From assembly GCA_944386225.1 (NCBI GenBank), contig CALXAH010000013.1:1-64000 (forward strand): a DNA stretch of 64,000 bases. Direction: 5' to 3'. Numbering within the stretch: position 1 is the stretch's first letter; each line of letters begins with the position of its first letter. The notes under the pieces are model-generated. The model was not told the DNA's origin and made no database searches. It saw only the letters and a program-made list of their open reading frames with translations. Origin of the DNA: an uncultured Gemmiger sp. GTDB lineage: Bacteria > Bacillota > Clostridia > Oscillospirales > Ruminococcaceae. A program made the translations under genes and the position numbers. Positions 35,029 through 55,329 of the stretch are shown here, piece by piece.

Positions 35029-35190
35029 CGGGTCGTAAGTTCCTCTCTGTCTGTGTTGCCGGCAAGGCCCCTGCCTCTTCCTCCGCAGCGGAAGCCTTGC
35101 GCTGCCATGTATTCAGTATACGCCCTCCGCCCGTTGGCTGACAAGTCCATTCCGGCAGAAAAGCGGGACGATTCCGGCGGGCACAGCGAA

Positions 35191-35223
35191 CACCGGCCGC
35201 ATCCTGAACGGATACGGCCGGTG
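35191..35223 (-). terminator. Terminator of the M24 gene
   Basis: CACCGGCCG/CGGCCGGTG arms with an inner ATCC/GGAT pairing; TGCTGTTTT flanks one side. Confidence 0.65.
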
Positions 35224-35295
35224 CTGTTTTGCGTGTTTATGTACTATCCGGATTGCCGCCCACGGTCAGCGCCGTGCAACGGCAGAGCAGCCTGC

Positions 35296-36474: not shown

Positions 36475-36498
36475 AGAATTGCAGCTCCTTTCTTTTGG

Positions 36499-37485: not shown

Positions 37486-37490
37486 CGGGC

Positions 37491-38432: not shown

Positions 38433-38449
38433 AAAGGAGCTTGACAGCC

Positions 38450-39232: not shown

Positions 39233-39256
39233 TCAAACCACAAAGGAGGAAAAAAC

Positions 39257-40369: not shown

Positions 40370-40436
40370 CATCGGATCAGACCCGCAGGCAAGCGGGTAT
40401 GAAAATAAACCGGCAAAGAGAAACAAGGAGGTCACT

Positions 40437-41495
40437 ATGAAAAAGAGAATGGTATGGATCCTGGCCGCGCTCATGATCATCGCCGCTCTGGCAGGCTGCG
40501 GGCAAACGCCGGCCGGCAGTTCTGAACCCTCCGGACAGAACAGCGCATCTCCGGATGCCTCTTCTGCCGCCGGCGGCAGCGACGAAGACCGTCTGTACAT
40601 CGCCGCGGTAGCGGCTGAGGTGGGCATCCCCTATTTCACCACTATGCAGTGGGGCGCTATGGATGCGGCCGCCGACTACAATGTGGAACTGTACTGGACC
40701 GGCCCCGCTGAATGGGATTTCAGCAAACAGCAGACCTTTATCGACGGTGTGGTTGTCACCAATCCGGACGCCATGATGCTGGTTCCCACCGACAACGCCG
40801 CCCTTGTTACCTATGTGGACGAATGGATGAACGAGGGTATCCCGGTGATCTGCACCGACCTGATCCTGGCAGAGCATGTGGATCTGGTGGGTTACAGCTC
40901 CGATCCTTACTCCGGCGGCGCGGAAGCCGCCCGTCAGTTCTACGCCCAGAACGGTGATGGCGGTGTTTACCTGCCGGTCGGCACCAACCCCGGCGCGTAC
41001 GGCGCCAACCTGCGAGTACAGGGCTTTGTGGAAACCATTCAGGAACTGGATAAGGACTGCACCATCCTGGATACCGTATACCCCGGCAACGACGCCAACA
41101 AGGCCGCCCAGCTGGTCAGCGCGGCCCTCACCGGTAACCCGGATATGACCGGTATCTTTGTGGCAACCTCCGCCCCCGCCTCGGGCGCGGCTTCCGCTGT
41201 GATTGAAGCGGGCAAGAGCGGCGTGGTCAAGGTTTGCTCCTTCGACGCTGATCCTCAGCAGATTCTGGATCTGAAGGCCGGTACCTACGATGTGCTGATC
41301 GCCCAGGATCCCTATCAGATGGGCTATGACGCGATCATGAATCTGGCCAAATATTGCCGCGGCGCACTGACCGACGAAGACTTCACCGAAGCGGCCGTCT
41401 ACTATGAGATGAAGGCCCTGACCCGCGAAAACGTGGACGATCCGGAAAACGCCAAGTTCAAGTACATTGCCGAGCTGTCCGAAGACGGCTATTGA
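40437..41495 (+). CDS. Sugar ABC transporter substrate-binding lipoprotein (Peripla_BP_4)
   Basis: 352 residues. A lipoprotein signal (AALAGCG, Cys about 20) and Ser-rich linker precede a type I periplasmic-binding fold starting LYIAAVAAEVGIPYFTTMQWGAMDAAADYNVELYWTGP. The ribose/xylose-type family is clear; the precise sugar cannot be told. The start is ATG 40437 behind AAGGAGG. It is part of the operon with the ATPase and permease. Confidence 0.9.
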   Translation: MKKRMVWILAALMIIAALAGCGQTPAGSSEPSGQNSASPDASSAAGGSDEDRLYIAAVAAEVGIPYFTTMQWGAMDAAADYNVELYWTGPAEWDFSKQQTFIDGVVVTNPDAMMLVPTDNAALVTYVDEWMNEGIPVICTDLILAEHVDLVGYSSDPYSGGAEAARQFYAQNGDGGVYLPVGTNPGAYGANLRVQGFVETIQELDKDCTILDTVYPGNDANKAAQLVSAALTGNPDMTGIFVATSAPASGAASAVIEAGKSGVVKVCSFDADPQQILDLKAGTYDVLIAQDPYQMGYDAIMNLAKYCRGALTDEDFTEAAVYYEMKALTRENVDDPENAKFKYIAELSEDGY

Positions 41496-41562
41496 TCCTG
41501 ATGCATCGCTCACGGCCTGCCCGTGAATCAATACCATCATTTGAAAAGGAGTGTTTTGTATT

Positions 41563-42336
41563 ATGGCTTACAAGATTCTGTATGTGGGAGATACCCAGGT
41601 CAACGTGCAGACTTCCATCAAAGGTATCGATAGCTGGACCTTTACCTATTACAGCGATTCCGCCCGGTATCTGCGCAATGCGCTGAACGCCGCAGACGAC
41701 ATCGAGTGCACCCATATTCCCTCCATGAACTGCATCGCGGACATGCCTTCCACGGCGGAAGAGATGAAGCAGTATGACGCCATCATCGTCAGCGACGTGG
41801 GCTACAACAACATCGTGTTGCAGCCCGGCAACGTACAGCCGTTCCGGGTTCCCATGGGTCCGGACCGCGTCAAGGCGCTGTGCCAGTACGTCCAGGAAGG
41901 CGGCGGCTTTATGATGATCGGCGGCTGGCTGTCCTTCTCCGGCATGCAGGGTAAGGGCATGTACGGCGGCACCAAGGTGGAGGATCTGCTTCCTGTTACC
42001 TGCGAGCCCCGCGGCGCCGACGACCGTATGGAGATCACGGAAGGCTACTCCATGCAGATTGACGATCCCGAGCACCCCATTGTAAAAGGGATCAGCTGGG
42101 ATGTGCCCTACCTGTTTGTGGGCTACAATAAAGTCCACCTGCGGCCGGACGCCCATCTGGTTGCCTCCTATGACGGGGATGTACAGATCGCAACCCGCCA
42201 GGTCGGCAAGGGACGCAGCTGCGTGTTCACCTCCGACGTGGGCCCCCACTGGGCCGGCAATTTCCTGGATCACCCGGATTACAACAAGTTCTGGCAGCAG
42301 ATTGCCCGCTGGGTGGCCGGCGGCTATCCGGACTGA
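41563..42336 (+). CDS. ThuA/GATase1-like protein
   Basis: 257 residues. The class I glutamine-amidotransferase-like fold is visible (KILYVGDTQVNVQTSIKGID, YDAIIVSDVGYNN, VQEGGGFMMIGGWLSFSG, VGKGRSCVFTSDVGPHWAGNFLDHPDYNKFWQQIARWV). It resembles trehalose-utilisation/ThuA and DUF4159-like proteins. The usual nucleophile Cys is not in the elbow, where MIGGW replaces it. ATG 41563 was preferred over 41551 because AAAAGGAG lies 14-20 nt before it. It is the last gene of the sugar import operon and may process the imported glycoside. Confidence 0.75.
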   Translation: MAYKILYVGDTQVNVQTSIKGIDSWTFTYYSDSARYLRNALNAADDIECTHIPSMNCIADMPSTAEEMKQYDAIIVSDVGYNNIVLQPGNVQPFRVPMGPDRVKALCQYVQEGGGFMMIGGWLSFSGMQGKGMYGGTKVEDLLPVTCEPRGADDRMEITEGYSMQIDDPEHPIVKGISWDVPYLFVGYNKVHLRPDAHLVASYDGDVQIATRQVGKGRSCVFTSDVGPHWAGNFLDHPDYNKFWQQIARWVAGGYPD

Positions 42337-42360
42337 TCCATTCCTTCCGCCCGAAACCAA

Positions 42361-42387
42361 AAGCCAGGCCCACGGGCCTGGCTTTTT
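42361..42387 (+). terminator. Terminator of the sugar ABC operon
   Basis: AAGCCAGGCC/GGCCTGGCTT arms followed by TTTTCTG. Confidence 0.85.
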
Positions 42388-42425
42388 CTGTCTGAACGCC
42401 TTGCGGCGTCACGGAGGAACCCGGC

Positions 42426-43592
42426 ATGAAGCATCAAAGCAACCGGATTTTCTTCTTTTTATATCTGTTTTTCTGGTTGGGTGAAAACTGTCTTTCCCAG
42501 TACCTGGGCGTATTTTATGAGCAGCAGGGCCTTACCGGAACGCAGATCGGAATAGTAAGCGGTATATTCAACGGAGCTGTAATCGCAGCGGCGCTGCTCG
42601 TAGGCATGGCGGGCGACGCATTGGGCAACGCCCGCCGTCTCCTGATGCTGCTGTGCGGCGGCATGATCCTGGGTACCGGCCTGTTGTTTTCTGTGCGCGG
42701 CTGGCCTGTGACGCTGCTGGCCGTTGCCGTTTATGGCTTTGCTTATTCTCCTTTCAATGGTATTGCCGACAAGGCATTGATGTCCCGCCTGTCGGCTGCC
42801 CCGCATCTGTTCGGCCGGTATCGGATGGGCGGTACCCTGGGGGCCGGTATCGGGGTTCTGATTGCCGGTGCCCTGGTGGGCCGTACTCCTTTTCTCAGTC
42901 TGTTCGCTGTATATTGGGCGGCGGCTCTGCTCTGCGGCGGATGCACCCTGGCATTGCCGGCCGGTTCCGCGAACGTCCCGGAGGATCGGGTTCATCTGCG
43001 GGATTATGCGCGGATCGTCCGCATGCCCGCCTTTCTTCCGATCTACCTGACCCTGGCCGTCTGGGGCTTCACCGAAAGCGGCGTCATGCAGTTTCAGGCC
43101 CTGCACGTGGCCCGCTGCGGCCTGGACGAGAGCTATACCAGCCTGTTCGTGGCTGCGGCCATGGCGGGAGAGTGCGTAACCTTTGCCCTGGCGCCCCACA
43201 TCATTGCCCGGCTGGGTACGGCTCGAACCGTAGCGCTGGCTTTTTTCCTTCAGTTCTGCCGTATGGGCGCACTGGCTTTACTGGGATTTCTGCCGCTGCC
43301 GCTGGTCATCTTTTGCCAAATTATAGGCGGTGGCGCCTACGCCAGCCTGTATTCCGTTATCACACAGGCCATCAGCGCGCGTTTTCCGGAAAAGGTACGC
43401 TGCTCCGCGCATACCCTCAAGCTTGTGGTAAACCGCGGGATCGGCACCACCTGCGGCTCCCTGCTGCTGGGTGTGCTGTATGAGCGCGGCGCTCTGACCC
43501 AGGCCTATGCCATTCTGGCTCTCACGGCCGGGCTGTACATAGGCATTTCCTTGTTCTATGCCCTGGTCAACCGCACTTCCCGTTTACCGTAA
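42426..43592 (+). CDS. MFS transporter (nucleoside/lactose-permease-like)
   Basis: 388 residues, 12 helices. The N-terminal KHQSNRIFFFLYLFFWLGENCLSQYLGVFYEQQGLTGTQIGIVSGIF resembles the LacY/nucleoside:H+ symporter and MFS_1_like families. A GRYRMGGTLGAGIG motif is in the loop between helices 4 and 5. The start is ATG 42426 behind GGAGGAA. It sits after the sugar operon terminator but on the same strand, so it may be part of the same metabolic island. Confidence 0.85.
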   Translation: MKHQSNRIFFFLYLFFWLGENCLSQYLGVFYEQQGLTGTQIGIVSGIFNGAVIAAALLVGMAGDALGNARRLLMLLCGGMILGTGLLFSVRGWPVTLLAVAVYGFAYSPFNGIADKALMSRLSAAPHLFGRYRMGGTLGAGIGVLIAGALVGRTPFLSLFAVYWAAALLCGGCTLALPAGSANVPEDRVHLRDYARIVRMPAFLPIYLTLAVWGFTESGVMQFQALHVARCGLDESYTSLFVAAAMAGECVTFALAPHIIARLGTARTVALAFFLQFCRMGALALLGFLPLPLVIFCQIIGGGAYASLYSVITQAISARFPEKVRCSAHTLKLVVNRGIGTTCGSLLLGVLYERGALTQAYAILALTAGLYIGISLFYALVNRTSRLP

Positions 43593-43847
43593 TTTGTTAC
43601 ACCCATCCCGCACGGAAAGAGCACTGCCACCATTCCGCAGCATTCCGATCTGCCGTCTTTTTTCATCGCCCGGACGCCGCGGATTCCCCCGCTATACAGA
43701 TGAGCCGGCCTCTGTTGCAAAATTGCGCAAAACACCCTTTTTCCCATGGCATCGGCTTATCCGGCGGTTCCGGTTTCCTTTTCTTCGATCCCCCGCCAAG
43801 AAGCCGCTTCCCGGCGAACAAGGGCATTTCTTTCTGCCCAGCAAAAA

Positions 43848-43886
43848 ACAGGCCCCGGCGTTGCCGCGCCGGGGCCTGTTCTGTTA
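43848..43886. terminator. Bidirectional terminator between MFS and the surface cluster
   Basis: ACAGGCCCCGGCG/CGCCGGGGCCTGT arms with A6 before and TCTGTT after. The preceding 250 bases (43593-43847) hold no recognisable gene or repeat. Confidence 0.85.
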
Positions 43887-43931
43887 AAAATCGCTTTTGC
43901 TCTCTTGATGGGTAGGAATCAATCGGAGAAA

Positions 43932-44906
43932 TTACTCCTCCTGGCCGCCCTTGCGCTTGCGCAGGGCCACCAGCACGATCAGCAGGATCGCCAGCAGACC
44001 CACAACGCCGCCAACAACCATCGGCATGCTCACGCCCGCCGGGGTGCTCTCGCCGCCCGCCTGGGGAGTGCTCTCGTCGGGGATATCCTCACCGCCGGCC
44101 TGCGGGGTGCTCTCATCGGGGATATCCTCACCGCCGGCCTGCGGGGTCTCCTCGTCGGGGATCTCCTCGCCGCCGTCACCAGCGCCAGCACCATCACCGC
44201 CGCCGACCACGCCGGCACCGCCCACCAGGTTCACGTCGTTGTAGTTCACCACAACATCGCCGTCCACATATTCGGTCACGGTGTTTACATGTACCGTCTG
44301 GGTGTAGTAGAAGGTGAAAACGGTCTGTCCGTCTTCCAGAATTTCCTGGGTCTGTACTGCGTCTCCAACCACAGTAAACTCATCCACCGCGATGGCGGTC
44401 AGGGTCAGAGGCAGGCCAACCGTGGCAGTGCCACGCACACTGGGGGCCACTTCCTCATTGGTACCCTGCAGCAGGTACTGCACCAGATAGCTGCCCTCGT
44501 TCCGGTCGCCTTTCAGAGCGTACTGCGCCACAAAGTCGTAGTCACTGGTCATCGGATTACCGGCAACATAGTTGGTATCGGCATCCACTACGGCGGTTAC
44601 AGTGTAGTTGCTTCCGGCCGTGGTAACCAGCGTGTCGTTGGGTACCGGTGCAGTGGGCGCCGTCTCCTCGTCCATCACCAGCACAGCCACAACCGTGTTG
44701 GTATCGTTGTAGTAAACGTTATCCGCACCATACTCAGAAACAAGGCTTTCCACGTATGCCGGGGTAAAGGAACCGTGCTCACCGGCGCGGAAGGTTACCA
44801 CATAGCCGGTATCATCCGCCGCAAACGCGGTAGCAACAGGGAGGGCGGCCAGCATGCACAGAGCCATCAGCACCGCCGCAAAGCGTTTCATAAAAGCTTT
44901 CCGCAT
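43932..44906 (-). CDS. Membrane-anchored surface protein with MucBP-like domain and 13-residue repeats
   Basis: 324 residues. A signal peptide ends at AFA (about 28). A bacterial adhesion-type MucBP-like segment (GSYLVQYLLQGTNEEVAPSVRGTATVG ... FTFYYT) follows. A Gly-rich linker leads to three 13-residue repeats (GGE[ED]IPDE[ES]TPQA). The C-terminus has a transmembrane helix and a basic tail (RKRKGG). No sorting motif precedes the helix, so it is anchored by the helix itself. It is the last gene of the cluster operon. A surface adhesin or anchor is likely. Confidence 0.75.
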   Translation of the reverse strand: MRKAFMKRFAAVLMALCMLAALPVATAFAADDTGYVVTFRAGEHGSFTPAYVESLVSEYGADNVYYNDTNTVVAVLVMDEETAPTAPVPNDTLVTTAGSNYTVTAVVDADTNYVAGNPMTSDYDFVAQYALKGDRNEGSYLVQYLLQGTNEEVAPSVRGTATVGLPLTLTAIAVDEFTVVGDAVQTQEILEDGQTVFTFYYTQTVHVNTVTEYVDGDVVVNYNDVNLVGGAGVVGGGDGAGAGDGGEEIPDEETPQAGGEDIPDESTPQAGGEDIPDESTPQAGGESTPAGVSMPMVVGGVVGLLAILLIVLVALRKRKGGQEE

Positions 44907-44912
44907 GGCTGC

Positions 44913-45692
44913 TCACTCCTCCTTCTTTTTCTTCTTTTTAGCCGCCAAGATGAACACCAGCACGGCCAGAACCAGCACACCTGCCAGCGGGGCAAAGGCA
45001 ACCGGATCGCCAGTCTGCACACCATTCAGCCAGTACCGGGTCTGGGTAACAACGATGTCTTTTCCCTTCTCATACACGGTCTCGGTGCGGCTGACGGGTA
45101 CAACAGCCTCAGCACGGAACTGGAACTGCATAGCGCCGTTGCCGGACATGTACATCGCATCGGTGCCGGTAGCATCCGGTTTGATGCGCAGGGTCAGGGT
45201 AGCGGTGCTCTTCGGATCCACCGAAGCTACCAGCACATAGTCATTGCCCAGCACATCTTCCTGGTTCAGCACCTTCAGCTCTTCGGTATTCTGGCCACCC
45301 ACCAGCACGCCCTGCTCACCACCGTCAGCATAGGTGGCAGCCCCGGTACCGTCATTCTGGACAGCGGTGTTACCAAAGATCACCTGGCCGTCCACCAGCA
45401 TGGTCACGGTGTAACCGGTATCCTTGGCGCCGGCAGCCGTCAGGGTCTGCAGCACTTCGGTGGACATGTAAAAATTGGTAATGTAGTTGCTTTCGTTCAC
45501 CAGCTCAAAGGAGCCGCTGCTCTCCACACCGGGCATCATGCTCTCAAAACCGGTCAGACCTTCCGAGGAGATCGCCAGCTCATCGCTGCCGTCATAGGTT
45601 ACGGTGGTGGCGCCATCCGCCGCATAGCAGCCCAACGCTGCTACCAAAGCCAGGCTCAGCACCAGCACAAGTGCGAACAAACGTTTTGTCAT
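44913..45692 (-). CDS. Exported protein with C-terminal sorting-type signal
   Basis: 259 residues. A signal peptide of about 25 residues is followed by a beta-rich domain (TYDGSDELAISSEGLTGFESMMPGVESSGSFELVNESNYITNFYMS). The C-terminus reads VQTGDPVAF followed by a hydrophobic helix and KKKKKKEE. This is the layout of a cell wall sorting signal with QTGD in place of LPxTG. The middle matches the TasA/SipW-associated domain pattern of the neighbouring proteins. Start ATG 45692. It may be the wall-attached base or cap of the fibre. Confidence 0.75.
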   Translation of the reverse strand: MTKRLFALVLVLSLALVAALGCYAADGATTVTYDGSDELAISSEGLTGFESMMPGVESSGSFELVNESNYITNFYMSTEVLQTLTAAGAKDTGYTVTMLVDGQVIFGNTAVQNDGTGAATYADGGEQGVLVGGQNTEELKVLNQEDVLGNDYVLVASVDPKSTATLTLRIKPDATGTDAMYMSGNGAMQFQFRAEAVVPVSRTETVYEKGKDIVVTQTRYWLNGVQTGDPVAFAPLAGVLVLAVLVFILAAKKKKKKEE

Positions 45693-45719
45693 TGCATTTC
45701 ACCTGTCTTTCCGCTGCGC

Positions 45720-46388
45720 TTAGTTTTCGATGCTGATGATATTTCCATCAGCATCCAGTTCGGCGGTCACGCCCCAGGCAGACAGGATGCCCGCCTTATT
45801 CAACTCATTGTCGTCCTTCACATACTGCACGCCGTCAGCCTCGGCCTTCAGAATAATGCCTTTACCAGCATATTCGTTCTTCAGGCTCTCGTCCAGCGTA
45901 AGCCAATCCAGCAACCGACCGGTACTGCTATTGGGCTGCAGAGGCGTCTTGAAATAGAACACCTGGGTTTCGCTCTTGGTCCGGCCTGCGAACAGACTGG
46001 CCGCCTGCATCCAGCCGCTGTTGTCCGCAGTAATCAGCTCAATATTGCTGGAATCCAGTTCTGTGTTCTTTTCAAATTCGCCGTCTACCGAATCAGCCCA
46101 GTACTTGGTAACGGTCACCCGTACATAGGCGGGTACATCTCCTCGGTTGTATATGTTGTAATTTTCATACAAGCTGTACTCGCCGCCGGGCATAATATTC
46201 TCCAGATCCACATAATCCCCTTCGCTCTGAGGGATCATGCTGAACCATTCGATTTCCAACTTAGGCGCAGCCAACTCAGCCACCACGGCTTTGGTGCCTT
46301 CAGCTTGCTGCGCGGCTAATGTGCCGCCTGCGGCCACCGCAAACACGAGAGCGGCAGTGACAGCCATCAAAATGTATCTTTTTTTCAC
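45720..46388 (-). CDS. TasA/CalY-like exported protein 4
   Basis: 222 residues. The signal peptide MKKRYILMAVTAALVFAVAAGGTLA is related to those of the three proteins upstream (AVGGTLAY), with an extra AAQQAEG region. The body contains KLEIEWFSMIPQSEG and NIMPGGEYSLYENYNIYNRGDVPAYVRVTVTKYWADS, typical of camelysin/TasA-like beta-sandwich proteins in which a PGG/PG-D motif precedes the strand N-x-G-x-x-P/A. Its start overlaps the signal peptidase stop by 4 bp, so it is translationally coupled to its likely processing enzyme. Confidence 0.8.
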   Translation of the reverse strand: MKKRYILMAVTAALVFAVAAGGTLAAQQAEGTKAVVAELAAPKLEIEWFSMIPQSEGDYVDLENIMPGGEYSLYENYNIYNRGDVPAYVRVTVTKYWADSVDGEFEKNTELDSSNIELITADNSGWMQAASLFAGRTKSETQVFYFKTPLQPNSSTGRLLDWLTLDESLKNEYAGKGIILKAEADGVQYVKDDNELNKAGILSAWGVTAELDADGNIISIEN

Positions 46389-46882
46389 TTGAAACTCTCC
46401 CTTTTCTTAAACTTGTCTGCAAGTGCCCACAAGAGGAATGCCAGGGCAAAAACCACTATGCAAACAGCGATGCCGCCGGGCGATTGCAATTCCATAGCGG
46501 CGGCGCCCAGGCATGGAACGGAAAAGCTCACGACGCCCAGCACCTGACTGTATCGCACGGGATAGGTGTCCGCGCTGGCATTTGCGTCGCCTTTGGTGGT
46601 CAGCTGTTGGCCGGCCACATCGTTGGAGACCACCCGATGGGTCTCCGTCCAAGCACTGCCTGTTCCTTTGGAGTAGGTCACGATATCGCCGGGCACAAGG
46701 TCCGCGGGATCGCATCCCTTTACATAGACCGCACAGCCCACAGGCAGGGCGGGGGTCATACTGGGGGTAAGTACGCTGTAAATTTGGTATCCGAATAATT
46801 TAGGAACGGTAAGGGGGAGGGCGACAAGGATCACAAGGATCATCAACACCGTTGCCGCGACGTTGAGGATTTTCGCTTTCAC
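46385..46882 (-). CDS. sipW: ER-type signal peptidase I (SipW-like), copy 2
   Basis: 165 residues. Two transmembrane helices flank the catalytic domain. Nucleophile Ser41 is in YSVLTPSMTPALPVG and the His of the ER/archaeal-type Ser-His pair is His82 in ETHRVVSN (bacterial SPases use Lys here). GDIVTY and TKGDANAS complete boxes C-E. This subtype in Firmicutes processes TasA-like precursors specifically. Upstream is one TasA-like gene and downstream another, coupled by overlap. Confidence 0.92.
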   Translation of the reverse strand: MKAKILNVAATVLMILVILVALPLTVPKLFGYQIYSVLTPSMTPALPVGCAVYVKGCDPADLVPGDIVTYSKGTGSAWTETHRVVSNDVAGQQLTTKGDANASADTYPVRYSQVLGVVSFSVPCLGAAAMELQSPGGIAVCIVVFALAFLLWALADKFKKRESFK

Positions 46883-46946
46883 ACGCCGCCCTCCGTTTCA
46901 GTTATAAATTACCACTTACCGCAAACACGGAATTTTCCAATCGCTA

Positions 46947-47633
46947 TTAGTTGATGAAGCCGTAGTTCTCTTCAAAATGATCGGCAGTACCCTTAGCCTG
47001 CTCCAGAACCATCTGCTCGAAGTCCTCAGCCGACAGATTATCTGCCTGTGCCGCATAAGCAGTCACATTGATGTCAAACTGAGCATCAGCGTACTCGTTG
47101 TTCCACTCGGCCGGGATCTGAATGCTGCTGAACAGATCGATGATCTGGTTCTTATCGCTGGTGTCCACAATGCCGTCCATGATGTACAGGGTGCCGGTCA
47201 GGCCCTGGAAATCCGCGGCGTAGTAGGTGGTAAGAATGGGGAATTTACCCTCGCGAAGAATCGCGTTGTCAACCCGGTTCAGCAGTTCCAGATCGGTGGG
47301 CTTCGCGGTGTTCTTGTTCTCCACAGTGACCAGAACCGCCAGACGAGTAGGCGCACTGTCATGAACCACAGAGATGAAAACGTCCTTGCTCAGTTCATCG
47401 CCGGGCACAACGTTGTCGTACTCGATGCCGGAACCATCCGGCTTTACCTGCCCCTGCACCATGCCATCAACCTCGGGGCTCATGTCGTGCAGTACGATAT
47501 CCACCTTACCAGCGGTAAAGGCGTTAACAACGGTTTCGGTCTGATCAGTGAAGTAGGCCAGGGTGCCGCCAACAGCGATAACCGCGACCAGGCACAGACT
47601 CAGAGCCGCTACCAGAAGATTGCGCTTCTTCAT
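46947..47633 (-). CDS. TasA/CalY-like exported protein 3 (SipW-type signal peptide)
   Basis: 228 residues. The signal peptide MKKRNLLVAALSLCLVAVIA-VGGTLAYFTD is almost the same as that of the 47742-48365 protein. The AYFTDQTETVVNAFTAGKVDIVL stretch is the SipW-dependent signature, followed by NVVPGDELSKDVFISVVHDSAPTRLAVLVTV. The remainder is a TasA-like beta domain with a helical C-terminal tail. The start is ATG 47633. It would be cleaved by one of the two adjacent SipW-like peptidases and assembled outside the cell. Confidence 0.85.
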   Translation of the reverse strand: MKKRNLLVAALSLCLVAVIAVGGTLAYFTDQTETVVNAFTAGKVDIVLHDMSPEVDGMVQGQVKPDGSGIEYDNVVPGDELSKDVFISVVHDSAPTRLAVLVTVENKNTAKPTDLELLNRVDNAILREGKFPILTTYYAADFQGLTGTLYIMDGIVDTSDKNQIIDLFSSIQIPAEWNNEYADAQFDINVTAYAAQADNLSAEDFEQMVLEQAKGTADHFEENYGFIN

Positions 47634-47698
47634 GATACTATACCTCGTTTTAATTTGCTAAATACCCGCACACCCGCAGGCGCATTTCTTAAATTAGT

Positions 47699-47727
47699 TC
47701 CCCGGCCCGGCCATTGCGGGCCGGGAA
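47699..47727 (-). other. Internal hairpin between TasA-like genes
   Basis: CCCGGCCCG/CGGGCCGGG arms and only a mixed A/T stretch behind it. A partial terminator or processing site that could lower expression of the genes downstream is plausible. Confidence 0.5.
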
Positions 47728-47741
47728 TTGTATCAGCAAAA

Positions 47742-48365
47742 TCAGCCCTGGGCAGTGGGATAATCAACCGCCTCGTAGGCCTCCATCACAGTCGCCAGGT
47801 CATTCGCTTTCTGGATAGCCTTCACCTTGATCACGATACTGCCCACGTTATCGGTAGTAGCATCCTCAGCGAACTGAATGGTATCGAACAGGTTCCAAGT
47901 GGTCGTCTCGTTAACCTCCAGGTAGTAGGTGTTCGCAGGCAGAGCCTTCTCACCTTCCGGCACATCAGTGTTTTTATGCCAAGCGCCCAGACCCTTGTTA
48001 TACGTATCGTTTTCCACAATGGAAACCTTGTCGCTGTTCACAACTTCGATAAACACATAGGTCGGAATATCCGTAGTAACGGTAACCACAGGCTTCTTGT
48101 GGGCTTGCTGGCCAGCGACCAGATTGATATAGCCGTAGCCGGTATCATTACCTTCCCCGTCCGACGTAGGAGTAGCAGATTCGTTCCATACACGGTTATC
48201 CTCTGTCCAGGTCTCACTCTGCTCAACCGTAATTCCATTCGCGAAACTAAAGGTGTTGGTCAAGGTGCCATCGCTCGCGGTCAGGTAAGCCAGGGTGCCG
48301 CCAACGGCAATCACTGCAACCAGGCACAGGGACAGGGCCATCATAAGTACGTTTTTCTTTTTCAT
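47742..48365 (-). CDS. TasA/CalY-like exported protein 2 (SipW-type signal peptide)
   Basis: 207 residues, from ATG 48365. The signal peptide MKKKNVLMMALSLCLVAVIA-VGGTLAYLTASDGTLTNTFSFANG is a close copy of the next gene's. The body includes GYINLVAGQQAHKKPVVTVTTDIPTYVFIEVVNSDKV, the TasA-type second half. ATG 48365 has GAGGAG upstream; an in-frame start 18 codons earlier has none. The gap of 174 bp to the upstream signal peptidase gene contains a GGCGGC-rich hairpin, so it may have separate expression control. Confidence 0.85.
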   Translation of the reverse strand: MKKKNVLMMALSLCLVAVIAVGGTLAYLTASDGTLTNTFSFANGITVEQSETWTEDNRVWNESATPTSDGEGNDTGYGYINLVAGQQAHKKPVVTVTTDIPTYVFIEVVNSDKVSIVENDTYNKGLGAWHKNTDVPEGEKALPANTYYLEVNETTTWNLFDTIQFAEDATTDNVGSIVIKVKAIQKANDLATVMEAYEAVDYPTAQG

Positions 48366-48539
48366 GATTAAATCTCCTCTTCTTGTTTTTTTAGACGCAC
48401 CTTGCGCCTTAGGATACATTCGGATTGGCGGCCGCGCCGCCGGGGGGAATTCCTTTCGGTCTCCTGTAATTCAGTTTATCGGAAGGAGGATAAAAAAGCG
48501 GTTAAAATATCGCTGTCAAATCCGATATTTACTGCTCTT

Positions 48540-49085
48540 TTACATTTTTTCTTCCTTTTCAGAAGCTTCGGCAACCTGCAAGGCTTTTTTCTTATCCTCT
48601 TCACCCGCGTCGATAATGGCCGGGATGAAGTTGAGCAGAATCACCACCACAAGCACACCGCACACCACCATGATACCGGTGGGTGTTTTGATGTTCATGG
48701 CGATATAGCCGAGATACGGCAGATGGAACTTGGTTTCGCCAAAGACCTGGCTGAACGCCACTGGACCATCCTCCGCCTCGTTGGCGTCACCCTTGGTAAC
48801 CAGAGTGCTCGTCTCCGGGTCAACGCTGACCACCCGGTGAGTGACCATTGTTTTACCGTCCGAGAGGGTGTAGGTGCAGATATCGCCGGGCTCCAGCTGG
48901 GTGGGATCGTCCAAAGGCTTTACATAGACGATGCTTCCCACCGGGATGGTGGGCTCCATGCTGCCGGACAGTACCGCCATCTCCTTAAAGCCCAAAAGCA
49001 TGGGCACCAGGATCACGGCCGCCACCGCCGCCAGCAGGAGCATCACCACCGTGGATAGAATGTTACAAATCTTCTTTACGACCAT
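48540..49085 (-). CDS. sipW: ER-type signal peptidase I (SipW-like), copy 1
   Basis: 181 residues, from ATG 49085 (a GTG at 49091 overlaps the AAGGAG site). Transmembrane helix (about 10-32), nucleophile Ser42 in VLSGSMEPTIPVG, catalytic His83 in VTHRVVSVD, GDICTY, TKGDANEA, and a second transmembrane helix (about 137-160). It is the same subtype as copy 2, though clearly diverged in sequence. It is located 12 bp behind the TasA-like gene 49098-49646. The presence of two such enzymes suggests division of labour between substrates. Confidence 0.92.
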   Translation of the reverse strand: MVVKKICNILSTVVMLLLAAVAAVILVPMLLGFKEMAVLSGSMEPTIPVGSIVYVKPLDDPTQLEPGDICTYTLSDGKTMVTHRVVSVDPETSTLVTKGDANEAEDGPVAFSQVFGETKFHLPYLGYIAMNIKTPTGIMVVCGVLVVVILLNFIPAIIDAGEEDKKKALQVAEASEKEEKM

Positions 49086-49097
49086 GGGCACTCCTTA

Positions 49098-49646
49098 TCA
49101 GGCATCGCCCAGTTTCGGAGGATCCGCGAATACCCCCGCAATCTCTTCCGCAGTGCTGCAATTAGAATCTGATGTCGCCAGCACGCTTTCCTCGTAAATG
49201 TACACGCGGAACTGCTTATCGGTCGGCATTTCAGTAACAGTCACGCCATTGAACAGGGGTGCTGTCGTACCACCCGCAGCCAATTTACCGCTGTAGTAAT
49301 AGTAGCCATCGCCTGCGTTATACAGCCACTTTGAGGTATTATATTGGGGCGTCACATGCGCAGCCAGCATGGGATTAGCATACTCATCGCCGCTTTCGTC
49401 AACTATCACCACATAAGCAATCGCACGAACATACACATCTGCCGTGCCGGTGTTTTTAACAGTCGGCGCCTTGTTTGTTGCGGAATCAGGGTCTTCCGGT
49501 TCCTCTACCTCCGTATCGATCTTCATGAGCGAAAAGGTGTTGAGCAGCGGGCTGTCGCTGGCCACCAGATAGGCCAGCGTGCCGCCCACAGCCACCACGG
49601 CCACCAGCAGAACGGAAAGCAGAATTCGGATTATCGGTTTTTTCAT
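49098..49646 (-). CDS. TasA/CalY-like exported protein 1 (SipW-type signal peptide)
   Basis: 182 residues. The signal peptide MKKPIIRILLSVLLVAVVAV-GGTLAYLVASDSPLLNTFSLMKID has the family AYL-x-A-S-D-S-x-L-x-NTF pattern. The body has APTVKNTGTADVYVRAIAYVVIVDESGDEYANPML. The start is ATG 49646, 24 bp after the stop of the large VWA protein gene. It is the first of the four TasA-like substrates in the operon. Confidence 0.85.
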   Translation of the reverse strand: MKKPIIRILLSVLLVAVVAVGGTLAYLVASDSPLLNTFSLMKIDTEVEEPEDPDSATNKAPTVKNTGTADVYVRAIAYVVIVDESGDEYANPMLAAHVTPQYNTSKWLYNAGDGYYYYSGKLAAGGTTAPLFNGVTVTEMPTDKQFRVYIYEESVLATSDSNCSTAEEIAGVFADPPKLGDA

Positions 49647-49670
49647 TGTTCTCGCTCCTTTCTCCTGGTG

Positions 49671-52600
49671 TTAAGCGCCCTGGTTCAGGCCTTTTTTATA
49701 CTTCCATTCAGTTCCATCGTGATAGAAAGTATTCGGCAGCTTCTCAATGTCGCCCCACTCGTCGCCGTCACAGAGATTAATAAAACCTACTTCCGCAGTA
49801 GCGCCTCCACTAACTGTTACAAGCCGGTTATTTGCTCCACTCAATGTGAATCCCATAGTCGGCAATTCAGTGACAGTGTAGTTGCCCGCCGGCAAGTTCT
49901 CCAGTACCACTTCACCTTGGCCATTTAAGGCAGGACACGGGATACTTACAATGGTTTCAAAATTCTCTGGACCAGTTACTTTGAACAGAAATACTGCGTT
50001 CTGCAAGCTGCCCGGAATCTGTGTAAGGTCAGATCCCTGAACCGCCTGAACAGTTTTGGTAATTTTCAGGTCGCCACGTGCCGGTGTATACTTATTAGTA
50101 AAAGCAGCCGTATGGTTACCATTCTGTTGGGTACTTCCACTGATGCCTGTTTGCGTTGCATCCAGAACAAATCCATCCAGCTCTGCTCCGCTTTCTGCGA
50201 CCTCATAATGTACACCCGGCATGATTCCTTCAATAGTATACCGGAAAATATTGGGATTGCTTGTATCTGGATCAAATTTGCTCAACGGAACATTCTTTAC
50301 CTCGTCACCTAGTGTAATGTTGAAAACCAGGCTGTTCATTAACGAAGCAATCTGCTTTGCACCCAAGCCATCAAATGTTTTCTCAACAGTCAAACGTGCC
50401 GGTGCCAACTGAATTACGGGTTTCGGGAAGTCATTGTGCTGTTCTACACCATTAAACGTGTACGTGATGTACGCTTCATTGTTCGAGTAGAATCCCACAT
50501 CATTCGCATGAGTACCCGTATTTCCATCTCCGCGATTTGGATATGTAAAGCCTAATTCCTTATACTCTGTATAAGCAGCCTCTGTAGGTTCAATTCGAAG
50601 ATTTACAGTATATGTATACCCTTGTTCCAGCTTATAATCATCCAGGAAAATCATTTTCAGCTGACGAGTAGCCTCATCATACTGAACCGTTACAGGCTCC
50701 GTGGTGACAGTTTCATTTTTTTCGTTTTTCACAACCAATGTGGGCTGCTCTCCATTGACCGGCTTCACATTGGTACTCAAAGTATCTACCACAGATACGT
50801 CACTGCAGAGCAGATGAGTAACACTTCCCTGAATCTGATCGAACACATTTTGCAATTCCGTAGTGTTCGAAGCACTAAAATTCCTGAAATTATCGCGGCT
50901 TGCGCCTACAGAAGACTGATATGCGGCATTGCAGACCTGCTGAAGAATGTCATCTGCACCTTTTTCGTTGCCGACACGAACGCTAAAGAAGCCATTCAAA
51001 TTAGTTAAGTTCGCTGCTTCACCAGTCGCCCCATTGATACAGCTACTTGTTGTATCATGGCCATTTCCTTCTTGTGTACCTCGATCAGAGTAGTAGTATG
51101 TAGGCGCACCATCTGACAGGAAAATGACATACTTTTGCGCATCCGGACGCGCATTTAGAAGCAGTGCACGAGCCTGCAGAATACCTGCCTGATAATTGGT
51201 TCCTCCTGTTACACCAATTACAGTGTTGTTAATTATCGTCTGCGCATCCTTTGTCCAATAACAGGTCTGAATTGCATCGCGATAATACGTTGTACCACTG
51301 GTCAACTCGTCGCTGAAGTGTACAAGGCTGTAGCGGACATCCATTTTATCATTGGACGACATGCTGTTTACCAGCTTCTTAACTGCCTGACCAACTGCAT
51401 CAATGCGTCTCTGGCCGTCCATACTGTCTGCCATGCTGGCCGATACATCAACCACAAAAACGACATCTGCTTTTGCCGGTTTTGTAATGCTTCCTACCTC
51501 ACCGGACAAACTTAACTTCAAATCATAGCTGCCATCTTCACGACGATCCGCACGCTTTTCACGCTGCAGTTCCGTTTCTGTGTTTACGTCTCCTGCATCA
51601 CCATCTTTTGCGTTTCGGTAAATCAATTGAACATCTGCGTTGCCATCTAACGTATAGAATCCTGAAGTATCATGGTTGTAAACGCTATCGTAAAGTCGCA
51701 GACTGTCGTCAGAAGCCCAGTTGTCTATGCGTGCAAAATGGCTTACCGGATGGATTTGATCATTGCTGTCAATGTAGACCGCGCTCTGGAAAACATATTC
51801 TTCCTGGCCCACCGTAAATCTATCCATGTCAATTCCGGCAAGAATATCAGTGAACGAATATTTTGTTCCCTCTTTGCCAACATCAAACTGCGTGGTTTCT
51901 CCTTGCGGCACATTCAACGTATTACCTTCTGTATCAACAATGTCAAAAGTAAGCGAGAGTTGTTTTTCGCCGCCAATCAATCTATCGCTAGTCCATGTAA
52001 TAGTAAAACTGGAGAAACTATCTACATCAAAGGCAGCGGTCACATCGCCATTGGTAGCGACCACACCGGTCACATCGTCAGAGGGCAGGCTGGCGGCAGC
52101 CAGGGTAACAGGCGTCGCGGTGGCCACCTCTTCTACGGTCACATTGCCGTTGGCATCCTCCGCATGGTGCTGCACAGCCAGAGTGTTTGGATCGGCATCC
52201 TCAGGCAGGGCGGCGGGGGCCACCATGACAACGCGCACTTCGCCCTGGGGCTCCACTTCGTTGCCCTCGGCATCCTCAAAGCGGATGTCCAGAGCCATGT
52301 AACCATCGTACGTTACGCCGGCTTCGTCCAATTCAGCGGCGGCTTTTTCGGCCGCTTCGCCGGTCAGCAGATCGGCCTTCAGGGAAGCGCCCTCGGGAAT
52401 CACGCCCTCCTGGGCTTCCACGGTGACCACGGCCACGCGGTTGCCGGTCTCATCCAGCACTTCCGCGGTGTATTCACTGTTCAGCGGAGCCTGCGGGGTC
52501 TCTTCGTCCTCGATCTCCTCGCCCTTCAGGGCGGCCAGGCGGGCGTTGTAGTCCGCCAGAGTGTCCTCGCCCAGGGCTTCCAGGGCGGCGGTCTCGTCTT

Positions 52601-53147
52601 CGGTCAGGGCCTCTACAGCGGCCAGGAACGCGGCGTCGTCCATCGCCATCAGTTCGGCCAGCAGGGCTTCACCGTCCACAGTCTCCGGCTCGGCGGTGGG
52701 TTCCGCGGAAGGCTCCGCAGAGGGTTCCGCAGAAGGCTCGGCGCTGGGCTCCGCGGTGGGTTCCGCAGAGGGTTCGGCACTGGGCTCCGCAGAGGGTTCC
52801 GCAGAAGGCTCGGCGGAAGGCTCCGCAGAAGGCTCGGCGCTGGGCTCCGCGGTAGGCTCCGCAGTGGGCTCGGCAGTAGGTTCCGCCGTCGGCTCGGCAG
52901 TGGGCTCGGCGGTGGGTTCCGCGGTCGGCTCGGCAGTGGGCTCGGCGGTGGGTTCCGCGGTCGGCTCGGCAATCACGGCCGGGGTATTTTCCGGCGTGGT
53001 GCTGTCGGTCGGGGTCGTCTCGGTGACGGCAGGGGTCGATACAGGCACACCACTGTCGGTGGCCAGGATCGGCGTGCTCATCACACCGGCCAGCAGAACG
53101 ACGGCCAGCAGAACACTGGTGAATCGGCTGAACAGGTTGTGTTTCAT
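49671..53147 (-). CDS. Large secreted VWA-domain protein with AEP-repeat stalk and SpaA/Cna-B-like C-terminus
   Basis: 1158 residues. A signal peptide (1-30) is followed by about 95 residues of [TS]AEP repeats (about 60-155), helical and beta-rich regions (about 160-420), a VWA domain with the MIDAS motif DVSAS (about 566-570, [18 protein letters not shown]), and a C-terminal SpaA/Cna-B-like domain (about 1025-1120, [10 protein letters not shown] ... [13 protein letters not shown]). VWA-tipped pilins and adhesins of Gram-positives share this plan. The C-terminus (about [18 protein letters not shown]) lacks a hydrophobic anchor, so it may be released or held non-covalently. The gene's 3' half has markedly lower GC than its 5' half. 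Confidence 0.88.
52686..52972 (-). repeat. 12-bp AEP-coding minisatellite in the VWA gene
   Basis: About 24 units of 12 bp encode TAEP or SAEP. Two sub-types (TAEP block on the 5' side, SAEP-rich block on the 3' side) show recent unequal expansion. It should be prone to length change. Confidence 0.9.
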
Positions 53148-53174
53148 GGTCTTTGCCTCCCTACACGGATTTGG

Positions 53175-53684
53175 TTATTCTTGGACGAACGAGTCGTGGT
53201 TTTCTTCGGACGGTTCCTGCGGGGAACCAGGGTCGGGCAGCGATTCTTCCACAGCGCTGTCCATCAATTTTATAAGTTCCAGCGCGCTGCGGAAACTTGC
53301 TTTCTGGTTTTTTTCCGCCCAGACCACCGTGCCCTGCCAGGTGGCGTTCTGCCGGTGCATTACATGAACTACAAAGGTGGCCATGCGGCCTTTCTGACCG
53401 GAAAGCTCCTCTTTGCTCATCCGACGTTCCACCTCTTTCTCCGTTGGGGCAGCGGGTTGACCGCGTCTGAAACTGCGGGGCCGCTGTGCGGCTTGCGGAT
53501 ACCCGATCCTGTCGCACAGATCGTCGATGCAGGCCAGCAGCTGAAACCGGCTGCGAAACGGGATTGCCTGGTCTGTGTAATAGTGGAACAGCCGCCCGAT
53601 GCATTCGCCGTTCAGGACGCTGTCCACACACACGCTGCACAGGTTTGGCGCCGCGGCATGGATCCCGTGTATCTGCACTGACAC
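53175..53684 (-). CDS. First gene of the surface operon, conserved-type cytoplasmic protein of unknown function
   Basis: 169 residues from GTG 53684, with AAGGGAGG 7 nt upstream. The in-frame ATG further up at 53939 would cross the composite operator and is rejected. It has no signal peptide. A C-terminal block (MATFVVHVMHRQNATWQGTVVWAEKNQKASFRSALELIKLMDSA) looks like a small conserved module that I cannot name. It is transcribed just ahead of the VWA gene with a 27-bp gap, in a position typical for a regulatory or chaperone role. Confidence 0.7.
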   Translation of the reverse strand: MSVQIHGIHAAAPNLCSVCVDSVLNGECIGRLFHYYTDQAIPFRSRFQLLACIDDLCDRIGYPQAAQRPRSFRRGQPAAPTEKEVERRMSKEELSGQKGRMATFVVHVMHRQNATWQGTVVWAEKNQKASFRSALELIKLMDSAVEESLPDPGSPQEPSEENHDSFVQE

Positions 53685-53710
53685 CTCGCCCCCTCCCTTT
53701 ACATGATAAA

Positions 53711-53743
53711 AGTATGCCACATACCGGTTAACAATTTGGTTAA
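53711..53743 (-). promoter_or_regulatory. SARP-type composite promoter element, proximal copy
   Basis: On the + strand AGTATGCC (53711-53718), GGTTAA (53726-53731) and GGTTAA (53738-53743). Read on the minus strand: TTAACC-N6-TTAACC-N9-CATACT, where CATACT would be the -10 box of the surface operon and the TTAACC repeats (12-bp period) a SARP half-site pair upstream. Confidence 0.65.
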
Positions 53744-53795
53744 AAACGCAAGCCCGATTTTTTATCTCGGACATATTCTCCGGAAGGACGCCCTT

Positions 53796-53828
53796 AGTAT
53801 GCCATACGAGGGTTAAGCGGGAGGTTAA
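53796..53828 (-). promoter_or_regulatory. SARP-type composite promoter element, distal copy
   Basis: AGTATGCC (53796-53803), GGTTAA (53811-53816), GGTTAA (53823-53828). All three blocks are displaced by exactly 85 bp from the proximal copy and have the same internal spacing. A single extra TTAACC is at 53877-53882. Confidence 0.65.
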
Positions 53829-53958
53829 TTTTTCAAAAAGATTAATATTTTTATAGATTCTTACACTTAACCTCAAAATCGACACTTTTATTTGCCGCGA
53901 TTTTGGAAGAAGGCTGCAAAAAAGCCACAAAAGTGACAATTGTCCGCATTTTCCGCAC

Positions 53959-53987
53959 TTGTCAAACGGAAAAGATGCGGGTATAGT
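53959..53987 (+). promoter_or_regulatory. Promoter of the SARP regulator
   Basis: TTGTCA 53959-53964, 17-bp spacer, TATAGT 53982-53987, about 100 bp upstream of the gene. Confidence 0.65.
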
Positions 53988-54090
53988 TATATATAGTAAA
54001 TCTTATCGCCAGTGGGGCCTGCAGAGCGGAAGGCCCCTGATCCGCCGGTCATCGCACAACGCGGCCGTGCGGAAAAGGAGGAGGATTCTG

Positions 54091-55329
54091 ATGAGCGAAG
54101 CGGTTCCGGCATTACAGGTTCGCATGCTGGGGGATTTCACCATGACCTACCAGGGGCAGGTACTGCCGCTGAAAAACAGCCTGTCCACCAAGGCCATGCG
54201 GGTTCTGCAGCTTTTGTTGTACCGGGGCGAGCGTGGCATGGCCCGGGAAGCACTTGTGGATTCGCTGTTCTGCGACGATACCAGCGCCGACCCTTTGAAT
54301 AACTTAAAAGTGACCGTATCCAATCTGCGGCGGATCCTGGTTAAAGCGGGTCTGCCGCCGGAATTCACAGTGCGTGCCAAGAGCAAGCGGTACCATTTTG
54401 CGGCGCCCAAGCCGATATGGCTGGATGTGACCGCCTTTGACGAGTGGCTGGACAAAGCCGGCACCGCCGGTACCGAGGATGAAAAGCTGGCCTGCCTGCT
54501 GGAGGCGGAAAAGCTGTACGCGGGGGATTTTCTGCCCCATCTGGCGGGCAGTGACTGGGCCACCGTGGCGGCAGCCCATTACCGGCAGCGGTATTTTGAC
54601 TGTGTGCAGCAGCTGGCGGAGATCATGAAGGAGCGCGGCCAGTGGGAGGAACTTCTCACGGTGGCCACGCGGGCGGCGGCGCTGCATCATCTGGAAGAGT
54701 GGCAGTGCCTGCGGATCGACTGCCTGATGAAGATGGAGCAGTATCAGGAGGCCAAAGCGGTATACGACCAGGCGGTGCGGGAGCTGGAGGAGGAGTTTGT
54801 TGCCAAGCCCAGCGACGCGCTGGTACAGCGGTTCCATCAGCTGAGCCGGGCGGGGCAGGTAAGCTACGAGACGGTGCACGAGCTGACCGACCAGCTGCAG
54901 GAGGATGAGCCCGCCCGGGGCGCGTACTATTGCAGCTATCCCAGCTTCATCGACGTATACCGTACCTGCAGCCGGATGCTGGAGCGCACCGGCCAGAGCG
55001 CCTATCTGCTGCTGTACTGGCTGACCGACTCCCACGGGCAGGTGCTGGAGGACGCGCAGAAAGCGGCCCAGGCGGCGCCGAAGCTGAAAACGGCGATCAG
55101 TTCCAGCCTGCGCCGGGGCGATGTGTTCACCCAGTACGGGCGGGATCGGTTTCTGGTGATCCTGATGGGCACCAACCGGGAAAACTGCGATCTGGTAGAC
55201 CGGCGGATCGTGCGCAAGTACAAGGAGGACGCGGCCTGGGGCGTGAGCTTCCGGCACACGCTGCACGCGGTGGGCACCGCCGAGCTGGATCTGGACGACA
55301 GCCGCATCTGGCGCCCCATCGAGGAATAA
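54091..55329 (+). CDS. SARP/BTAD-type transcriptional activator with degenerate GGDEF-like C-terminus
   Basis: 412 residues from ATG 54091 behind AAAAGGAGGAGG. The N-terminal OmpR-type winged helix (LQVRMLGDFTMTYQGQVLPLKNSLSTKAMRVLQLLL ... LKVTVSNLRRILVKAG) and bacterial transcriptional activation domain (BTAD, TPR-like, about 105-250) follow the SARP order. The C-terminal 140 residues end in SSLRRGDVFTQYGRDRFLVILMGTNREN, which has the shape of a GGDEF domain (D-V-x-x-x-G-x-D-x-F-x-x-x-L) but with GRDRF in place of GGDEF; diguanylate cyclase activity is unlikely. It is divergent from the surface operon and most likely activates it. Confidence 0.85.
   Translation: MSEAVPALQVRMLGDFTMTYQGQVLPLKNSLSTKAMRVLQLLLYRGERGMAREALVDSLFCDDTSADPLNNLKVTVSNLRRILVKAGLPPEFTVRAKSKRYHFAAPKPIWLDVTAFDEWLDKAGTAGTEDEKLACLLEAEKLYAGDFLPHLAGSDWATVAAAHYRQRYFDCVQQLAEIMKERGQWEELLTVATRAAALHHLEEWQCLRIDCLMKMEQYQEAKAVYDQAVRELEEEFVAKPSDALVQRFHQLSRAGQVSYETVHELTDQLQEDEPARGAYYCSYPSFIDVYRTCSRMLERTGQSAYLLLYWLTDSHGQVLEDAQKAAQAAPKLKTAISSSLRRGDVFTQYGRDRFLVILMGTNRENCDLVDRRIVRKYKEDAAWGVSFRHTLHAVGTAELDLDDSRIWRPIEE

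Follow-up and report, generated by a model that had tools for sequence, protein, structure and literature searches.

Gene content of the locus

The 64,000-nt stretch of contig CALXAH010000013.1 analysed here, referred to as the window, comes from an uncultured Gemmiger sp. (genome 3.38 Mb) and holds a cluster of genes for secreted and surface proteins that lies beside a divergent regulator of the SARP family. An earlier note on this DNA had described ten genes, and all ten are present: nine on the minus strand within 43932-53147, together with the plus-strand SARP gene. As a set, however, ten was too small, the operon-leading gene for a 169-aa protein and a sortase gene having been missed, and the cluster comprises about 12 genes in all. 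Read along the minus strand from 53684 to 43932, the order is the 169-aa protein, the 1158-aa VWA protein, Tas182, SipB, Tas207, Tas228, SipA, G3, G2 and G1. The features are as follows.

54091..55329, plus strand: SARP activator, 412 aa; probable OmpR-type winged helix-turn-helix (wHTH), BTAD and a C-terminal degenerate GGDEF-like domain, with YGRDRF at the GGDEF place
53796..53828, minus strand: operator/promoter 1 (predicted), TTAACC-N6-TTAACC-N9-CATACT
53711..53743, minus strand: operator/promoter 2 (predicted), TTAACC-N6-TTAACC-N9-CATACT
53175..53684, minus strand: operon-leading 169-aa protein, GTG start; two beta-beta-beta-alpha modules
49671..53147, minus strand: large secreted protein, 1158 aa; signal peptide, (T/S)AEP repeats, VWA (DxSxS), DUF7604, DUF7601, LPNTF near the end
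49098..49646, minus strand: Tas182, TasA/BsaA-like subunit, 182 aa (family search)
48540..49091, minus strand: SipB, SipW/archaeal-type signal peptidase B, 183 aa (family search)
47742..48365, minus strand: Tas207, TasA-like subunit, 207 aa using the inner start (family search, gene caller)
46947..47633, minus strand: Tas228, TasA/camelysin-like subunit, 228 aa (family search; modelled beta-sandwich)
46385..46882, minus strand: SipA, SipW/archaeal-type signal peptidase A, 165 aa (family search)
45720..46388, minus strand: G3, BsaA-like subunit, 222 aa (family search)
44913..45692, minus strand: G2, 259 aa; candidate base that would anchor the fibre to the wall, with a secreted domain, a QTGD motif, a membrane segment and a tail of lysines
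43932..44906, minus strand: G1, 324 aa; secreted, IPDExTPQAGGE repeats, membrane tail
35146..43838: 8.7-kb segment between G1 and the sortase; catabolic genes, outside the system
34225..35028, minus strand: sortase, TLSTC motif; a neighbour of G1 or G2 in several relatives but remote from them in the window

When trained on genes of the window, a codon-usage gene caller gave the same gene set and no long antisense open reading frames (ORFs). Its calls make ATG 54091 (412 aa), not TTG 53959, the most likely start of the SARP gene, and 48365 instead of 48419 the probable start of the 225-aa Tas gene, which shortens that protein to 207 aa. For the 169-aa gene the caller picked a shorter start (53420); the longer frame (GTG, to 53684) is favoured because its N-terminal half is conserved among relatives.

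Conservation of the cluster across genomes

Among 197 genomes of the family, a SARP was found in 71 (56 full-length by our count) and the 169-aa protein in 36, and 34 of the 36 genomes with the 169-aa gene also have a full-length SARP (hypergeometric 6e-21 with the 56 genomes, 5e-16 with all 71). When named genomes were scanned for the 169-aa protein, 515 relatives came to light; the best 80 were kept and correspond to 79 loci, among them loci from Gemmiger, Fournierella, Pygmaiobacter, Bittarella, Diplocloster, Hungatella and other Lachnospiraceae. In 64 of these 79 loci the 169-aa gene has a SARP gene upstream at a distance of no more than 5 kb (56 on the same strand, eight divergent), and downstream of the 169-aa gene Tas genes occur in 23, Sip genes in 24 and both in 20. 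The complete order small-large-Tas-Sip-Tas-Tas-Sip-G3-G2-G1 was recovered in 7 of the 23 Tas loci, the others being partial and many of them cut by the end of the stretch; Diplocloster and several Lachnospiraceae loci carry extra Tas genes ahead of the first Sip gene. Genome G127, of the same genus, had no match for the SARP, the 169-aa protein or Sip, and presence therefore varies within the genus. Since synteny is conserved, a chance origin of the cluster is very unlikely. The earlier note had taken the genes for a single linked system with its own SARP and had proposed a check on their co-occurrence: among relatives the genes are linked, not scattered, and both this linkage across genera and families and a SARP-type operator ahead of the operon bear the proposal out.

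A predicted operator ahead of the operon

The direct repeat TTAACC-N6-TTAACC occurs twice in the whole genome of origin, both times upstream of the 169-aa gene (backward control, one occurrence), and each copy stands 9 bp ahead of a CATACT -10 box. Searched across the 197 family genomes, repeat plus -10 box gave 14 matches in ten genomes (backward control, one): ten precede the 169-aa gene (8 genomes) and two precede a detached G1 in two Pygmaiobacter genomes. Every one of the eight genomes that carry the operator ahead of the 169-aa gene belongs to the ten with the closest SARPs. In stretch L263, an ABC-transporter gene adjoins a response-regulator gene that bears the operator.

In 40 of 90 stretches the 169-aa gene is preceded by the more general layout, a heptamer repeat at 11-12 bp pitch followed by a -10 box (mean 3.95 and maximum 9 in 100 shuffles); these stretches contain nine loci twice, leaving 35 of 81 distinct loci. 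Genomes G025 and G137 keep the layout with TTAAG repeats and have an altered SARP recognition helix (NNLNVTISQLRR vs NNLKVTVSNLRR), and in a table assembled by eye from 30 loci, related by descent, and one further pair whose SARP is distant, the repeat sequence varies together with the recognition helix. The evidence that the SARP controls the operon through this predicted operator is indirect but strong.

Signal peptidases and TasA-like subunits

The two ER-type signal peptidases reported earlier are confirmed as such, both exceeding the cut-off of the archaeal/ER-type model TIGR02228 (74.5 and 103.5 bits, cut-off 51.85) and belonging to a family in which 57 of 59 homologue rows have the SMxP motif and 57 of 59 the HR(V/I) motif; neither peptidase reaches the cut-off of 190 set for the Bacillus SipW equivalog (66 and 104 bits).

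The four proteins previously described as TasA/CalY-like are less uniform. Tas228 carries a SipW-dependent signal well over the cut-off (TIGR04088, 37.2 bits, cut-off 19), and matches of the other three are weaker: Tas182 scores 59 bits against the BsaA-family cut-off of 60 (TIGR04090), the long-start form Tas225 scores 16.6 bits with TIGR04088 against the cut-off of 19 (18.8, or 19.5 with neighbours, in another scan), and G3 reaches 17.6 bits with TIGR04090. Taking the aligned members together, at E 0.01 or better the TIGR04088 signal is found in 30 of 32 and the BsaA family in 18 of 32, and PF12389 at E 0.01 in 19 of 32. Because the cut-offs of PF12389 (22.4 bits for Tas228, cut-off 22.5) and of the TasA equivalog NF046066 (13.4, cut-off 450) are not reached, we call these proteins TasA-like rather than TasA. 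The AlphaFold model of Tas228 is a confident beta-sandwich (mean predicted local distance difference test, pLDDT, 86.7). The mature N-termini follow the consensus A|YFTDxTxxVxNTFTxG; in relatives of G3 the mature N-terminus has no N-x-F where the donor position would be.

The large protein: variable heads and a distinct class of tail

The VWA domain of the 1158-aa protein exceeds its cut-off (VWA_2, 54.9 bits, cut-off 27), so that the VWA protein named in the earlier note is present at this locus, but a VWA domain is not a constant part among relatives. When four large proteins from other Tas-positive loci were scanned, VWA appeared in L121 only, the remaining heads consisting of DUF7604/DUF7601 (L103), InlB-type repeats (L104) and DUF7601/DUF5979 (L136). 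At its other end the window protein has no hydrophobic window and lacks the C-terminal combination of LPXTG, membrane segment and basic tail.

The tails were compared in complete ORFs, truncated ones being left out, from 34 Tas-positive and 34 Tas-negative loci. Six near-duplicate tails (>50% identical) were removed from the former, leaving 28, and 12 proteins under 500 aa, probably not the partner, plus three near-duplicates from the latter, leaving 19. Hydrophobic tails were found in 0 of 28 Tas-positive and 11 of 19 Tas-negative proteins (Fisher 4e-6). Conversely, N-x-F occurs within the last 60 aa in 21 of 28 vs 1 of 19 (Fisher 3e-6; shuffle control on the 28 Tas-positive tails, mean 5.6, maximum 14). 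Restricting the Tas-negative group to the 13 loci with at least 1.5 kb visible past the large gene gave hydrophobic tails in seven and N-x-F in one (Fisher 8e-5 and 9e-5).

Several assignments bear on how these counts should be read. A regular expression for LPXTG plus transmembrane segment flagged 2 of 28 Tas-positive and 12 of 19 Tas-negative proteins; the two former, L202 and L204, have acidic ends and no hydrophobic window. The large ORF of L215 (614 aa) was retained, although it stops early and is probably not the full gene. L181 and L191 were scored Tas-negative despite a nearby Sip gene, and their LPxTG-type tails fall below the hydrophobicity threshold, while the Tas-negative proteins of L169, L178, L206 and L217 may not be the partner protein. 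An acidic end of the form (D/E)xR(L/F)(V/L/M), after or in place of N-x-F, is seen in the Tas-positive loci L166, L171, L197, L202 and L204.

The best tails, DYFTDTDIVNNQFEI, KYFTHTDISNNQFNI and GYFHNTDSVFNIFKA, resemble the mature Tas N-terminus, and N-x-F windows in tails score higher over all columns than internal ones (p 1e-4). Docking of the head by a tail that mimics the Tas donor segment is rated as no more than plausible, because the resemblance is statistically mixed.

G1, G2 and the cluster sortase

Both remaining surface proteins agree with their earlier descriptions, G2 as a sorting-signal protein whose LPXTG-type anchor exceeds the TIGR01167 cut-off (16.7 bits, cut-off 15.9; the Pfam model Gram_pos_anchor stays below its cut-off, 15.4 against 20), and G1 as a repeat-rich membrane protein with IPDExTPQAGGE repeats and a membrane tail. 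Complete G2 tails of relatives show TGD before a membrane segment and basic tail in 13 of 14 cases, with MGD in one. Since G2 tails keep TGD and the cluster has a sortase, the data suggest that G2 is a wall-linked fibre base and putative sortase substrate.

In loci L044, L103, L104, L134 and L135 the sortase gene adjoins G1 or G2, and in genome G008, of the same genus, it adjoins G1. BLAST comparison with G008 places window positions 31630-35145 and 43839-46823 next to each other there, about 17 bp apart, with segment 35146-43838, which here separates G1 and the sortase by 8.7 kb, absent. This segment holds genes for a sugar ABC transporter, an FGGY kinase, a sugar-binding regulator, a ThuA-like protein and a major facilitator superfamily transporter. 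We read it as an insertion between G1 and the sortase, because the sortase also lies beside G1 or G2 in L103, L104, L134 and L135, from two other genera; by gene neighbourhood, the sortase at 34225-35028 is a member of the cluster.

The SARP regulator and its 169-aa partner

The regulator contains a BTAD domain (49.6 bits, cut-off 22.1) preceded by an N-terminus that scores just below the cut-off for Trans_reg_C (25.0 bits, cut-off 26.2); the AfsR model covers wHTH and BTAD at E 5e-6, far under that model's cut-off. Its C-terminal domain is a relative of GGDEF (Pfam E 1e-4, slightly below cut-off), with the GG(D/E)EF signature in 0 of 99 SARP rows, a set in which some proteins are present twice; the sole row of 100 with the signature is an 846-aa GGDEF protein collected beside the SARP rows.

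The 169-aa protein gave no Pfam match and no signal peptide was seen in it, and it has fifteen invariant columns among 47 aligned sequences. In its AlphaFold model (pLDDT 77.9) the chain forms two beta-beta-beta-alpha units, and comparing the halves with each other as profiles gave E 1e-4 and a probability of 58%, against E 0.09 and 0.12 for reversed controls. It is thus likely that the protein arose with an internal duplication. As it is paired with the SARP and has no signal peptide, we infer that it and the degenerate GGDEF domain form the sensing or control side of the system.

SARP relatives of 23-34% identity adjoin type IV pilus genes, one of them within the genome of origin, and for this reason the regulator family seems tied to surface structures. 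The relative in the same genome (27% identity; L041 7516-8730, contig C19) stands directly after a type IV pilus-like operon with PilC, small pilin-like proteins and PilT. PilC is present in 7 of 62 annotated SARP stretches, SARP and PilC also occurring together in L050, L057, L061, L062, L106 and L113. In Lachnospiraceae and others, the SARP and 169-aa pair precedes giant LPXTG-type proteins in stretches without a Tas gene (L154, L157, L161, L180, L182, L184, L192, L213 and others), some of which end shortly past the large gene. Because of this arrangement, the pair looks like a general surface-protein switch.

Proposed mechanism and alternative explanations

From the observed linkage, operator and tail dichotomy we infer a fibre with docking, anchoring and sensing components: a wall-anchored, TasA-type fibre bearing a swappable end protein that plugs in by its tail, with surface display switched by the SARP. 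We regard this reading as moderately probable. The SARP would bind the two direct-repeat operators ahead of the operon and activate it, the 169-aa protein and the degenerate GGDEF domain possibly serving in sensing or control. SipA and SipB would mature the Tas subunits, as archaeal/ER-type peptidases do for fibre subunits in the SipW/TasA and SipW/BsaA pairs. By analogy with TasA, the subunits may polymerise by donor-strand exchange, the mature N-terminus (A|YFTDxTxxVxNTF) of one entering the next. The large protein would form the fibre end, with a head that can be exchanged (VWA here, InlB-type or SpaA-type repeats elsewhere) and, in most cases, an N-x-F tail that would fill the open groove of the terminal Tas subunit, replacing a membrane or sortase tail and doing a job that we liken to that of the TapA N-terminus in Bacillus subtilis. 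At the opposite end the cluster sortase would tie G2, which has a TGD motif and a membrane segment, to the wall, and G1 may be an accessory surface protein.

A number of observations weigh against this reading. The system is known here from genes and single-chain models, with no fibre seen, and TasA is absent among the Foldseek and VIA structural matches listed. Seven of the 28 Tas-positive tails are without N-x-F, and some Lachnospiraceae large proteins end in an acidic (D/E)DxRLV-type tail. Scored with a matrix built from Tas N-termini, the large proteins attain shuffle p <=0.05 in 9 of 34 Tas-positive cases and in 0 of 34 Tas-negative ones, and only five of those nine have their best window at the N-x-F site; the advantage of tails over internal windows falls to p 0.064 when upstream columns alone are considered, the two top-scoring N-x-F windows are internal, and the window protein's own tail has the lowest score of 23. 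Tas-negative status is itself bounded by the 10-kb flank, less than 1.5 kb being visible past the large gene in 6 of 19 cases. As for the cluster, the sortase profile had no match in the L048 and L136 clusters, 15 of the 79 loci have no SARP within 5 kb (three of these at a contig end), and genome G152 has the SARP, the 169-aa gene and the operator with no Tas operon beside them. The best SARP of G012 and G130 is 40-46 kb away from the operon and would therefore act in trans. Finally, 2 of the 14 operator matches precede OmpR-type response-regulator genes in other genera (L258, L263).

The last of these observations would be expected if the operator belonged to an OmpR-family, PhoP-like response regulator and the SARP were a neighbour with another role, and the excerpted text of PMC10972967 states that PhoP and AfsR can share binding sites. 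Against this stand the covariation of repeat sequence with the SARP recognition helix, within the limits of a by-eye table of loci related by descent, and the confinement of the operator at the 169-aa gene to eight of the ten genomes with the closest SARPs. A phosphate regulon is expected at more than one operon per genome, whereas the operator is found only at this operon within its own genome, and we consider such a regulator quite improbable as the owner of the site. The locus might alternatively represent two modules joined by history, a general SARP and 169-aa pair and a TasA/SipW cassette inserted in some lineages, with cassette and large protein functionally unlinked. The frequent position of the pair ahead of large LPXTG-type proteins in stretches that show no Tas gene, its occurrence in G152 without a surface-protein operon beside it and the type IV pilus genes adjoining distant SARPs all favour such a history. 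It does not, however, account for the absence of a hydrophobic tail on the large protein wherever the cassette is present (0/28 vs 11/19), nor for the operator retained by the detached G1 in two Pygmaiobacter genomes, and we hold it to be equally doubtful.

A somewhat stronger contender, still rather unlikely in our view, is an amorphous matrix of BsaA/TasA-like protein, in which the large protein would be co-regulated and freely secreted and its N-x-F tail would be part of the last domain. It draws on Clostridium perfringens, where BsaA is mostly extracellular and its polymers are sortase-independent (PMC7395162); 18 of 32 Tas proteins here match the BsaA family at E 0.01 or better, and the similarity of tails to the donor segment is mixed, with internal windows scoring highest. 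Yet tail class tracks the presence of Tas genes across families, and a free matrix would have no need of the TGD sorting-type tail of G2 or of the sortase found in several loci. The wall-anchored fibre with a plug-in end can also be extended, tentatively and with less confidence than we have in the fibre itself, to a general scheme of gut Clostridia in which freely swapped heads would be fitted by C-terminal tails mimicking a donor strand, a SARP with a dead GGDEF domain and a partner of duplicated modules would switch expression through a dedicated operator, and the same regulator family would serve LPXTG giants and type IV pili.

Comparison with known systems

To our knowledge, work on TasA-type fibres has centred on Bacillus and, for BsaA, on C. 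perfringens, and surface display in gut Clostridia is far less known. The parts of the present system are familiar: SipW with TasA from Bacillus, SipW with BsaA from C. perfringens, and SARPs from Streptomyces. Among the literature matches listed, in which subscription papers are mostly uncovered, none described a SARP-controlled TasA/SipW operon, a head protein whose C-terminal tail is donor-like, or the family of the 169-aa protein, and the literature searched gave no paper naming SARP, BTAD and GGDEF together. A conserved operon, a defined operator and a head-plus-tail logic make the activating factor, the docking residues and the candidate adhesins amenable to testing.

Sortase-assembled pili can have a tip adhesin with VWA plus SpaA-like domains, and the present system resembles them in the domains of its tip-type protein and in having a sortase in the cluster. 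It differs in lacking an LPXTG/membrane tail on the large protein and in its candidates for the shaft, which are TasA-like proteins, not LPXTG pilins.

The following comparisons are with the systems as described in the excerpts of the cited papers. The tapA-sipW-tasA operon of B. subtilis likewise has a SipW-type peptidase and TasA-like subunits with a similar mature N-terminus (PMC9674648, PMC10151520), as well as an accessory protein able to offer a donor strand; in TasA, residues F29, I32 and F39 of the donor strand contact the next subunits (PMC9674648), and the AFHDI of TapA resembles the AFNDI of TasA (PMC10151520). Compared with that operon as excerpted, the present cluster has two peptidases, four divergent subunits, a base with a sorting tail, a sortase and a SARP, and its donor-like segment is the C-terminal tail of a large swappable protein rather than an N-terminal one as in TapA. 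No TapA-like protein was seen in general family scans, none of which was aimed at TapA.

The sipW-bsaABCRSD operon of C. perfringens is a clostridial SipW operon with BsaA-family subunits and, as here, a cluster-situated regulator (PMC7395162). Polymers were shown there; regulation is by the BsaRS two-component pair there and by a SARP here, and the excerpts describe no large head protein and report that srtB is not needed for BsaA polymers (PMC7395162). The TasA-CalY-CapP system of B. cereus also combines several TasA/CalY subunits with an accessory assembly protein, and its polymer is sortase-independent (PMC13082335); CapP, a chaperone-like DUF4047 protein (PMC13082335), differs from the large head protein and its donor-like tail.

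Finally, the regulator extends SARPs from antibiotic clusters to surface architecture. SARP sites are described as direct repeats of heptamers, classically on an 11-bp unit, that lie close to the promoter (PMC10972967), and the present regulator shares with Streptomyces SARPs its BTAD domain, preceded by a probable wHTH, such repeats and its position in the cluster that it would control (PMC10972967). PimR of Streptomyces has a cyclase-like C-terminal half (PMC3367932), and the SARP here too has a cyclase-like C-terminal part. Unlike the Streptomyces SARPs as excerpted, it would act on a surface operon in Clostridia, its C-terminal part is degenerate GGDEF-like, and it is accompanied by a 169-aa partner.

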